Positions 42,244-47,154 of a DNA stretch of 64,000 bases are shown piece by piece (within the stretch, counting starts at the first letter, position 1; every line of letters starts with the position of its first letter). The notes beneath the pieces are model-generated. The model saw nothing but the letters and a program-made list of their open reading frames with translations, made no database searches and was not told the DNA's origin. The translations under genes were made by a program, and so were the position numbers. This DNA comes from Lysobacter luteus (GTDB lineage Bacteria > Pseudomonadota > Gammaproteobacteria > Xanthomonadales > Xanthomonadaceae). The stretch is taken from assembly GCF_907164845.1 (NCBI RefSeq), contig NZ_OU015430.1, positions 920,001 through 984,000 of the forward strand, written 5' to 3'.

Positions 42244-42318
42244 GGGCGGTTAGCTCAGCGGTAGAGCACTACCTTGACATGGTAGGGGTCACAGGTTCGA
42301 ACCCTGTACCGCCCACCA
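42244..42318 (+). tRNA. tRNA-Val (GAC)
   Basis: 75-base cloverleaf with encoded CCA. Acceptor GGGCGGT/ACCGCCC, D stem GCTC/GAGC, anticodon stem CTACC/GGTAG around loop TTGACAT (anticodon GAC at 42276-42278). T arm with GGTTCGAACC. Discriminator A. Confidence 0.98.
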
Positions 42319-42331
42319 GAACGTTGCGAAA

Positions 42332-42359
42332 ACGGCCGGGTCTGCCCCGGCCGTTTTTG
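42332..42359 (+). terminator. Terminator after tRNA-Val
   Basis: ACGGCCGGG (42332-42340) pairs with CCCGGCCGT (42346-42354), followed by TTTTTGTTTT. Third copy of this stem in the window. Confidence 0.88.
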
Positions 42360-42401
42360 TTTTCGCGTTTCGGTGCAAGCAAACGGCCCACCTTGCCGGC
42401 G

Positions 42402-42430
42402 TTGACTTGCCGCGCCCCGTTCCGGACTAT
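42402..42430 (+). promoter_or_regulatory. Predicted promoter of the thrS operon
   Basis: TTGACT (42402-42407), 17 bases, GACTAT (42425-42430). Transcription would begin near 42437, giving a leader of about 175 bases that holds the Thr peptide and attenuator. Confidence 0.55.
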
Positions 42431-42500
42431 TGCGGGGTGCGGCCGGCCCGGTCGCCCCGACCGAGGTGGCCCGCGCCGACGCGCCGGCCGAGCGTGCGAC

Positions 42501-42527
42501 ATGGACACTACCACCGGCCAACGCTGA
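42501..42527 (+). CDS. Threonine leader peptide upstream of thrS
   Basis: Short open frame encoding MDTTTGQR, with three consecutive Thr codons (ACT ACC ACC, 42507-42515). Its stop lies 3 bases before the antiterminator strand of the downstream hairpin system. When charged tRNA-Thr is scarce a ribosome would stall on these codons. The ribosome-binding site is weak (only a GAG about 9 bases upstream). Inferred from layout; not experimentally known to me. Confidence 0.7.
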
Positions 42528-42530
42528 CAC

Positions 42531-42575
42531 GCCCCGAGGCTTCCGCATCCGCAGGCGCCCTCGTGGCGCTTTTTG
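42531..42575 (+). promoter_or_regulatory. Transcription attenuator of thrS
   Basis: Terminator: GCGCC (42555-42559) pairs with GGCGC (42565-42569) around loop CTCGT, extended by a G-T and an A-T pair, followed by five T (42570-42574). Competing antiterminator: GCC-C-CGAGG (42531-42539) can pair with CCTCG-T-GGC (42559-42567), eight pairs with one mismatch, which destroys the terminator. I did not find a convincing strand within the peptide that would sequester the antiterminator. Confidence 0.7.
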
Positions 42576-42612
42576 TTTGCCCGCTCCTACAGAAGCCCGA
42601 ACCCTGATCCCC

Positions 42613-44514
42613 ATGATTGCAATCACGCTCCCCGACGGTTCCCGCCGCGAATTCGACCACCCCGTTTCCGTCGCCGACGTCGCCGGCTCGATCGGCCCCG
42701 GCCTGGCCAAGGCCGCGCTGGCCGGCAAGGTTGACGGCAAGCTGGTCGACACCGGCTTCCGGATCGACCACGACGCCGCGCTCGAGATCGTTACCGACAG
42801 GCACCCCGACGCGCTCGAGGTGCTGCGCCATTCCACCGCGCACTTGCTTGCCCAGGCCGTGCAGCGCCTGTTCCCGGGCGCGCAGGTGACCATCGGCCCG
42901 GTCATCGACAACGGGTTCTATTACGACTTCGCCTACGAGCGCCCGTTCACGCCCGAGGACCTGCCGGCCATCGAGGCCGAGATGCAGAAGATCGTGAAAG
43001 AGGCGCAGCCGGTCAGCCGCAGCGTCAAGTCGCGCGACGAGGCGGTTGCGTTCTTCAAGGGCATCGGCGAGCACTACAAGGCCGAGATCATCGAGTCGAT
43101 CCCGGCCGACCAGGACCTGTCGCTCTACAGCCAGGGCGAATTCACCGACCTGTGCCGCGGCCCGCACGTGCCCGGTACCGACAAGCTGCGCAGCTTCAAG
43201 CTGATGAAGGTCGCCGGCGCCTACTGGCGCGGTGACCACAACAACCAGATGCTCAGCCGCATCTACGGCACCGCCTGGCTCAACGACAAGGATCTCAAGG
43301 CCTACCTGCTCCAGCTGGAGGAAGCCGAGAAGCGCGACCACCGCAGGATCGCCAGGCAGCAGGACCTGTTCCATCTGCAGGAAGAGGCGCCCGGGCTCAT
43401 CTTCTGGCACCCCAAGGGCTGGTCGATCTGGCAGGTGGTCGAGCAGTACATGCGCAAGGTGTACCGGGATTCCGGTTACGACGAAGTGCGCTGCCCGCAG
43501 ATCCTCGACGTGTCGCTGTGGCAGAAGTCCGGCCACTGGGACAACTACCAGGAAAACATGTTCTTTACCGAGTCGGAGAAGCGTACCTACGCGCTGAAGC
43601 CGATGAACTGCCCGGGCCACGTGCAGGTGTTCAACCACGGCCTGCACAGCTATCGCGACCTCCCGATCCGTTATGGCGAGTTCGGCGCCTGCCACCGCAA
43701 CGAGCCGTCGGGTGCGCTCCACGGCATCCTGCGCGTGCGCGGGTTCACCCAGGACGACGGCCACGTGTTCTGCACCGAGGGGCAGATCGAGTCCGAGGTG
43801 ACCGCGTTCCACCGCCAGGCGATGGCGGTCTACGCCGATTTCGGCTTCACCGACGTGCAGGTCAAGCTCGCCCTGCGTCCTGAACCGCGCCTGGGCGACG
43901 ACGCGACCTGGGACAAGGCCGAGGACGCGCTGCGCTCGGCGCTGCATTCGGCCGGGGTGGAATGGGAGGAGCTGCCCGGCGAGGGCGCGTTCTACGGCCC
44001 GAAGATCGAGTACCACCTGCGTGACGCGATCGGCCGCACCTGGCAGCTGGGCACGATGCAGGTCGACTTCATGATGCCGGGCCGCTTGGGCGCCGAGTAC
44101 GTCGACGAGCACAGCCAGAAGCGCCACCCGGTCATGCTGCACCGCGCAATCGTGGGGTCGATGGAGCGTTTCATCGGCATCCTGATCGAGCACCATGCAG
44201 GCCAGTTCCCGGCCTGGCTGGCACCGGTCCAGGCGGTCGTGATGAACATCACCGATGCCCAGGCCGACCACGTCGAGGAGGTCCGGAAATCCCTTGCAAA
44301 TCAAGGGTTCCGGGTCCAAAGCGATTTGCGCAACGAGAAAATCGGCTATAAGATTCGCGAGCACACGCTGCAGCGCGTGCCGTACCTGCTGGTGGTCGGG
44401 GACCGCGAGAAGGAGAACGGCATGGTTGCGGTGCGGACCCGCGGGGGGGAGGATTTGGGGTTGATGACCACCGCCGAGTTCGCCGCGCGTTTACGTGACG
44501 AGGACGCCGGCTGA
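42613..44514 (+). CDS. thrS: Threonyl-tRNA synthetase
   Basis: Class II synthetase of 633 residues. N-terminal TGS domain ([21 protein letters not shown]...). Editing domain with [16 protein letters not shown] and its zinc-like His/Cys set. Catalytic core with [11 protein letters not shown] (zinc Cys), [35 protein letters not shown] and [19 protein letters not shown]-terminal anticodon-binding domain. ATG 42613 follows the attenuator; the in-frame opening to 42430 is noncoding leader. It heads the thrS-infC-rpmI-rplT cluster. Confidence 0.98.
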
Positions 44515-44580
44515 GGCAGCGTCCACCAGAGACCCGGCCGCACCGATGCGGCCGGCACGATTGATACCGGAGATTGCAAT

Positions 44581-45105
44581 ATCAGTACCCCCGACAAGCG
44601 GAACCGCAAGAACCAGGAGATCCGCGTCCCGAAAGTGCGCGTGATCGGCAGCGACGGCGAGATGGTTGGCGTGCTCTCGCGCGACGAAGCCCTGAGCCTT
44701 GCCCAGGAAGAAGGACTCGACCTGGTCGAAATCCAGCCGCACGGCGACCCGCCGGTCTGCCGCGTGATGGATTTCGGCAAGTTCATGTTCGACCTGCAGA
44801 AGAAGGCCAACGCGGCCAAGAAGAAGCAGAAGCAGGTCGAGATCAAGGAGGTCAAGTTCCGCCCCGTGACCGACGAGGGCGACTACCAGATCAAGCTGCG
44901 CAAGATGCGCGGGTTCCTGGAGGAAGGGGACAAGATCAAGGTCAACATTCGCTTCCGTGGCCGCGAGATGAGCCATCAGGAGCTCGGCCGCGAGATGGCC
45001 GCCCGGATCGAGGCCGACCTCGGCGAGGACATCGTGATCGAATCGCGCCCGAGGCTCGAAGGGCGTCAGATGGTCATGATGATCGCGCCCAAGAAGAAGG
45101 TCTGA
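44581..45105 (+). CDS. infC: Translation initiation factor IF-3 (AUC start)
   Basis: Keeps ribosomal subunits apart and checks start-codon pairing. The family N-terminus (STPDKRNRKNQEIRVPKVRVIG) begins in frame at an ATC codon (44581), preceded by GGAG with an 8-base spacer. There is no ATG or GTG before 44635, and starting there would delete about 18 conserved residues. infC is known for AUU/AUC starts, which let IF-3 repress its own translation. 174 residues: N-domain, Lys-rich linker (KKANAAKKKQKQVEIKEVKFRP), C-domain (MSHQELGREMAARIEADL). Confidence 0.95.
   Translation: MSTPDKRNRKNQEIRVPKVRVIGSDGEMVGVLSRDEALSLAQEEGLDLVEIQPHGDPPVCRVMDFGKFMFDLQKKANAAKKKQKQVEIKEVKFRPVTDEGDYQIKLRKMRGFLEEGDKIKVNIRFRGREMSHQELGREMAARIEADLGEDIVIESRPRLEGRQMVMMIAPKKKV

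Positions 45106-45563: not shown

Positions 45564-47154
<1,591 letters not shown>

Follow-up and report, generated by a model that had tools for sequence, protein, structure and literature searches.

A conserved threonine-codon leader ORF and a candidate transcription attenuator upstream of thrS in Lysobacter luteus and its relatives

The thrS gene of Lysobacter luteus is very probably preceded by a transcription attenuator in which a translating ribosome senses Thr-tRNA. In the window, i.e., the whole 64,000-nucleotide stretch that we analysed, the genes around thrS are uvrB, infC, rplT, pheS, pheT and the IHF alpha gene, and the leader running from tRNA-Val to thrS holds, in order, a possible promoter, the motif AGGTG, a hairpin that we call P1, the linker GAGCGTGCGAC, the ORF MDTTTGQR*, an antiterminator strand and an intrinsic terminator (Table 1). 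The ORF, its Thr codons, the terminator and the antiterminator are conserved jointly when related leader sequences are compared; from them we infer that the leader is translated, that the ribosome stalls on it and masks RNA, and in which direction the system responds. In the mechanism that we propose, the leader transcript would hold an 8-codon ORF; when Thr-tRNA is ample the ribosome would reach the stop codon with its footprint over the antiterminator strand, the masking of this strand would allow the terminator to form, and thrS would remain untranscribed. When Thr-tRNA is scarce, the ribosome would stall at ACT-ACC and leave the antiterminator strand free to pair with the terminator loop and 3' arm, so that RNA polymerase would continue into thrS. 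P1, between the Shine-Dalgarno site and the AUG, may tune ribosome loading on the leader ORF, which we offer as a guess. A sequence-only reading of this DNA had already proposed a ribosome-stalling attenuator here, and that proposal is now supported by the Thr codons, the in-frame stop, the terminator, the antiterminator and a predicted folding contrast.

Table 1. The thrS leader and its flanking genes in the window (position 1 is the first nucleotide of the window).
Feature	Position	Strand	Remarks
tRNA-Val	42244-42318		upstream neighbour of the thrS leader
Putative promoter	42402..42430	+	TTGACT 42402-42407, 17 nt spacer, GACTAT 42425-42430; by eye
Putative Shine-Dalgarno site AGGTG of the leader ORF	42464..42468	+	5' of hairpin P1
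Hairpin P1	42468..42489	+	central C.C mismatch 42472/42485; covariation
Conserved linker GAGCGTGCGAC	42490..42500	+	directly before the leader ATG; invariant columns
Leader ORF MDTTTGQR*	42501..42527	+	ATG GAC ACT ACC ACC GGC CAA CGC TGA; Thr codons ACT 42507, ACC 42510, ACC 42513
Antiterminator 5' strand CGCCCCGAGG	42530..42539	+	CGCC 42530-42533 with GGCG 42565-42568, CGAG 42535-42538 with CTCG 42560-42563; native duplex energy beats permuted
Intrinsic terminator	42553..42574	+	arms AGGCGCC 42553-42559 / GGCGCTT 42565-42571, loop 42560-42564; T-run 42570-42574
thrS, threonine--tRNA ligase	42613..44514	+	TIGR00418, 710 bits vs cut-off 384

A consensus scan of the leader found no promoter above threshold; the TTGACT listed in Table 1 is a plausible -35 element picked by eye, and the transcript would start near 42437. 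The scan recovered exactly the GC-rich terminator with five T residues that the sequence-only reading had described (one found vs a mean of 0.8 in shuffles); judged in the single window sequence alone, this terminator is not beyond chance. We regard the terminator and the ORF as more than chance because they are conserved, the ORF being present in 109 of 117 family leaders.

Some further features of this gene neighbourhood were noted downstream. The infC start is probably AUC (44581) after GGAG (44569-44583), the frame ISTPDKRNRKNQEIRV reading into IF-3; a non-AUG start is known for infC. Between rplT and pheS we saw by eye a terminator-like GGGGAAGG/CCTTCCCC with a T-rich stretch after it (45989-46013), which may be another attenuator of the operon, with no evident Phe leader, and a long imperfect, REP-like inverted repeat (46039-46111), a similar repeat being found in the thrS leader of locus L033.

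A ThrRS search gave a match in 10/10 genomes of the genus and 158/159 genomes of the family. From the family we took 117 upstream regions (37 from the search loci and 80 retrieved by their position), with about 44 further family genomes with a ThrRS match lying outside this sample, and the element was detected in the 117 leaders with a loose pattern allowing up to 4 substitutions. The order outside the family was sampled with 40 thrS leaders (38 of groups f2-f11 and two of f12) from 75 non-family genomes with thrS, and the class with 28 loci from other orders, out of 51 non-family genomes with thrS. The loci are related by descent, and the counts below are of non-independent events.

The 109 family leaders with the element share an ORF of the design M-x-Thr-...-stop, 5-9 codons in length (8 codons in 82, 7 in 17, 6 in seven, 9 in two and 5 in one). 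Thr stands at codon 3 in all 109, at codon 4 in 102 and at codon 5 in 40; thus the three consecutive Thr codons of MDTTTGQR, to which the sequence-only reading had drawn attention, are present in the window, but only the first two are conserved. The codon at position 3 is ACT in 108/109 leaders, and ACT is rare elsewhere (8/926 Thr codons across 37 thrS genes, 2/134 in six window genes), although the search pattern held ACTAC and is somewhat biased to ACT, 85/109 leaders having matched without any substitution. An in-frame stop follows the ACT-ACN place within 6 codons in 109/109 leaders, against 0 and 2/109 in the other two frames, and an alignment of 97 rows shows no variation in GTG, GACATG or the AC of ACT. 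Judged from this conservation of codons and frame, the ORF appears to encode a leader peptide, short and rich in cognate codons. A GUGC/GCAC hairpin spanning the leader AUG was considered and dropped, since codon 2 varies.

Eight of the 117 family leaders are without the standard element. Those of L071, L075, L076 and L081, all of one genus, have another form (ATG ACG CGC...) with a terminator after it, and in L010, L052, L068 and L085 (4/117) we recognised no such leader. The TTGACTTG of the putative promoter is also found upstream of thrS in L010, a locus of the window's own genus that keeps the promoter-like TTGACT and a terminator-like hairpin and is devoid of P1 and leader ORF; it is possibly a natural deletion of the sensor.

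A terminator follows the ORF in 100/109 family loci by a loose rule and in 97/109 at a stricter cut; an intrinsic terminator between ORF and gene is found in the window and in most family loci. The 12 loci of the 109 that keep ORF and linker without a terminator at the stricter cut (L066, L084, L087, L095, L100, L101, L103, L104, L105, L120, L122 and L127) may represent loss in progress or another control mode. The antiterminator strand, read earlier as 42531-42539 and able to pair into the terminator hairpin, is placed here at 42530-42539, with the terminator loop and 3' arm as its partner, and it co-evolves with the terminator in the family loci. When native duplexes were compared with permuted ones, i.e., duplexes between loci, the 98 family loci gave -11.24 vs -10.39 kcal/mol (sd 0.18), a native energy reached in 0/20000 permutations, and in 1/20000 when one value was taken per distinct terminator (64 classes). 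Pairing was kept despite changed bases, e.g., CGCCCAAG:CTTGGGCG in L044 and TGCCAG:CTGGCG in L059. For 26 loci of other families, whose ORFs we chose by eye, the native value was -9.62 vs -8.22 kcal/mol permuted (0/20000), so that an antiterminator alternative to the terminator is found both in the family loci and in these 26. The antiterminator was not significant among the 20 loci of the f12 form (19 of f12 and L185 of f3; 1990/20000), from which L187 was left out as it has no terminator, nor among four loci of a divergent family genus (3262/20000); ORF and terminator are present in both groups. An antiterminator formed instead through the 5' arm of the terminator was rejected, permuted duplexes equalling or exceeding native ones in 19779 (f1), 14505 (f12 form) and 18432 (others) of 20000 permutations. 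The sequence-only reading was to fall if the Thr codons or the competing stems were not conserved in relatives; we found both conserved, the stems with compensatory changes.

In the 97 family loci, the antiterminator starts to pair at a median of 5 nt past the stop codon and 25 nt from the first nucleotide of the first Thr codon. We modelled the consequences at equilibrium rather than co-transcriptionally, ignoring timing and letting the ribosome cover 12 nt from its A site (values are similar with footprints of 10-16 nt). The predicted probability of the terminator, P(terminator), in the window is 0.003 with the ribosome stalled at Thr, 0.91 with it at the stop codon and 0.01 with no ribosome. 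The predicted family means (97 loci) are 0.27 for a ribosome stalled at the first Thr codon vs 0.78 for one that has reached the stop, with the stalled value lower by more than 0.1 in 72/97 loci and the opposite in 4/97, and shuffling the segment after the stop raises the stalled value to 0.65. The modelled contrast is weaker for the f12 form (0.57 stalled vs 0.84 at the stop; 10/20 lower by more than 0.1) and for other families (0.57 vs 0.79; 7/26), and nearly absent in the four divergent loci (0.74 vs 0.79; 1/4 lower, two opposite). With no ribosome, the model gives a family mean of 0.50, with 0.85 for the f12 form and 0.60 for the others.

The sequence-only reading had looked in vain for a clear strand that pairs with the antiterminator while the peptide is fully translated; such a strand is not needed, because the terminating ribosome itself can mask the antiterminator, which a ribosome at the stop would cover given the median distance of 5 nt. 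A protector hairpin that gives termination without translation is a feature of the trp sub-type and not of all attenuators. For the window, termination without translation is not predicted (P(terminator) 0.01 when untranslated), and we found no strand in its untranslated leader that sequesters the antiterminator. P1 was tried as a protector pairing with the antiterminator and rejected, as the untranslated window fold keeps P1 local and the antiterminator forms. Since this untranslated leader is predicted to avoid the terminator and read through, weak leader translation would, unlike in trp-type leaders, leave thrS on.

The alignment of P1 comprises 97 of 105 distinct sequences; those omitted are L038 and L049, which are without P1, and L101, L105, L112, L114, L123 and L124, in which P1 is present. 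All eight pairs are changed on both sides somewhere in these 97 rows, with a covariation of 0.254 vs 0.096 shuffled, and 85.7% of cells pair vs 76.6% shuffled, slid structures scoring far lower. The pair at columns 22/37 is mostly mismatched (74/96), and the stability of P1 in the single window sequence is ordinary (z 0.11). The linker is exactly GAGCGTGCGAC in 64/97 rows, and the Shine-Dalgarno site is AGGTG in 76/97 and GGGTG in 12/97. Although AGGTG stands 27-34 nt from the AUG with P1 in between, its anti-SD duplex is stronger than that of the site beside the AUG in 97/97 rows. The loop of P1 is a GNRA in 50/97 rows and contains NGU in 3/97. Where P1 is missing, the leaders L038 and L049 have SD-like GAGGTGACGACATG and GAGGTGCGACATG near the AUG, their GAGGTG standing 4-5 nt upstream of the ATG, and five f11 loci (L204-L207 and L227) have an SD-like AGGTGGCACATG close to the AUG; as P1-less leaders have such a site near the AUG, the comparison of sequences suggests that P1 is a module gained or lost between Shine-Dalgarno site and AUG.

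A covariance model built from P1, the linker and the ORF start found one place in the window's genome, the thrS leader (E 1.4e-15; next 1.5), with no other copy in that genome at E <1, and it matched in 109/250 genomes of the order at E <=0.05. Among the matches listed for this model, those with E-values below 1e-6 belong to f1, f12 and one f3 genome. A strict pattern, with one genome per species, found at least 120 stretches, 80 of them listed; thrS is next on the same strand in 78 of these 80, the other two pieces ending too soon to judge. The listed stretches belong to genera of Xanthomonadaceae or Rhodanobacteraceae, or to MAGs placed there or named Proteobacteria bacterium; one 'Rhizobium' MAG among them was taken as mis-binned.

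Beyond the family, in 27 of the 40 other leaders of the order a terminator comes after a short ORF that contains two or more Thr codons, vs 7.7 in shuffled controls; the other 13 of the 40, including all seven of f9, are without such an ORF and terminator. In f2 and f3 a small hairpin (e.g., GUUC-GAAC-GAAC) and ACGATCACC or ACGATCACG stand before ATG ACG CGA. A second, unrelated-looking 5' module was seen before thrS in L189-L197, L071, L075, L076 and L081, consisting of CGTAG, a small hairpin, ACGATCAC and then ATG ACG CG; its GATCACC is identical to part of the 16S rRNA 3' end. In 9 of 11 loci inspected by eye (L198, L199, L202, L215, L216, L218, L221, L222 and L228, the pattern being absent in L201 and L217), a -10-like hexamer ends 6-7 nt before the ATG, and because of this spacing the Thr leader ORFs of these nine loci are probably on leaderless mRNAs; leaderless leader peptides may be known elsewhere. 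In distant families (L198, L202, L215, L216, L217 and L218) the Arg codon CGA stands directly before Thr ACT; CGA makes up 7/237 Arg codons in six window genes, and it might slow the ribosome there. Outside the order, 2/28 class loci pass a loose rule vs 1.85 in shuffled controls, which gives no evidence for the attenuator in this sample.

Three other explanations of the leader were weighed against attenuation. An anticodon-like NGU loop marks the E. coli type of thrS operator, in a hairpin by the thrS ribosome site, and if ThrRS bound its own leader RNA in this way, the anticodon would be mimicked by P1 or by the YGU of the linker, and the small ORF would be incidental. The linker does have YGU in nearly all rows; however, P1 loops are GNRA in about half of the alignment and NGU in just the three rows given above, P1 precedes the small ORF and not thrS, the frame of the ORF is conserved in 109/109 leaders, and P1-less leaders retain the Thr ORF and the terminator. 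According to PMC3858243, the E. coli thrS ribosome site is bipartite, with a hairpin between its halves that ThrRS recognises, which resembles the hairpin-interrupted site found here upstream of the same gene. The split site here, however, is that of an upstream small ORF, and the predicted control acts on transcription, through a terminator; moreover, a ThrRS block of leader translation is predicted to give read-through in the window, the wrong sign for self-repression. Control of this E. coli type is, in our judgement, improbable.

Still less probable is that the leader ORF serves mainly translation (re-initiation or coupling) or Rho control, with the terminator secondary. The 12/109 family loci in which the stricter cut leaves the ORF with no terminator would suit such a role, but a terminator is present in 97/109, with an antiterminator that co-evolves with it, and a distance of 66-266 nt separates the ORF stop from the thrS match, which is far for re-initiation. 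We give hardly any credence to a plain conserved terminator or 5' UTR bearing a chance ORF; the window's terminator count near the shuffled mean and the ordinary stability of P1 are what one would then expect, whereas codons, frame and stems are conserved and the frame control contradicts it. While these comparisons leave attenuation as the reading that we prefer, we more tentatively envisage a two-input switch, a possible but doubtful extension, in which the Thr ORF would sense Thr-tRNA and P1 together with the near-invariant GUGYGACAUG would form a separate ribosome-loading module for the leader ORF, either a hairpin-split Shine-Dalgarno site or a site for a putative factor. On this view, as the window's untranslated leader is predicted to read through by default, any drop in leader translation would increase thrS expression and perhaps that of infC. 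The start of the leader ORF would then have been rebuilt several times across the order (split SD, plain SD, another hairpin type, leaderless) with the Thr sensor and terminator kept.

T-box leaders of Gram-positive synthetase genes also sense the charging of the cognate tRNA, as proposed here, through a terminator and antiterminator. Unlike them, this leader has a conserved ORF and no conserved UGGN at a similar place (AGGTGG, AGGTGACC, AGGAACCC and others occur); no T-box model matched it, and P1 as a T-box antiterminator was rejected, the UGG being unconserved. Classical leader-peptide attenuators are those of trp, his, thr, leu and pheST of enterobacteria, with which the thrS leader has in common a short ORF with cognate codons, alternative antiterminator and terminator hairpins and ribosome-polymerase coupling. 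It differs from them in its target, the synthetase gene thrS, in its peptide, which is very short and in which two Thr codons are conserved, in having no antiterminator-sequestering strand in the window, and in the covarying hairpin between Shine-Dalgarno site and AUG. We file it among leader-peptide attenuators, the principle of which is outlined in PMC2659441, because ORF, terminator and antiterminator were all found, and consider it an apparently new variant, without a trp-type protector in the window and with P1 added. A leader peptide on a synthetase gene has been predicted before, a histidine one before hisZ and hisS* in bacilli (PMC2965389); that case concerns another amino acid and another lineage and is likened to ours by description, not by sequence. 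Rfam gave no match above gathering score in the leader; at E <=5 there were seven matches, each below gathering, six of them within 42310-42421 and the lone one over the leader being to GNAS-AS1_1 on the minus strand (15.4 bits vs gathering 45). Among the papers that our literature search turned up, we recognised none describing a Thr leader before thrS; Lopatovskaya et al. 2010, reportedly on attenuation of amino-acid and aminoacyl-tRNA operons, may predict part of it.

In E. coli, thrS is a textbook example of translational self-repression by a synthetase. Much of the order, Xanthomonas, Stenotrophomonas, Lysobacter and Rhodanobacter included, appears to control this gene differently, by reading Thr-tRNA charging directly, and the system offers tests of the evolutionary exchange of synthetase control, of the minimum length of a leader peptide and of a regulatory hairpin between Shine-Dalgarno site and AUG. 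If the attenuator is as we propose, more threonyl-tRNA synthetase would be made when charged Thr-tRNA is low, and IF-3, encoded downstream of thrS, is a candidate for coming under threonine control as well.
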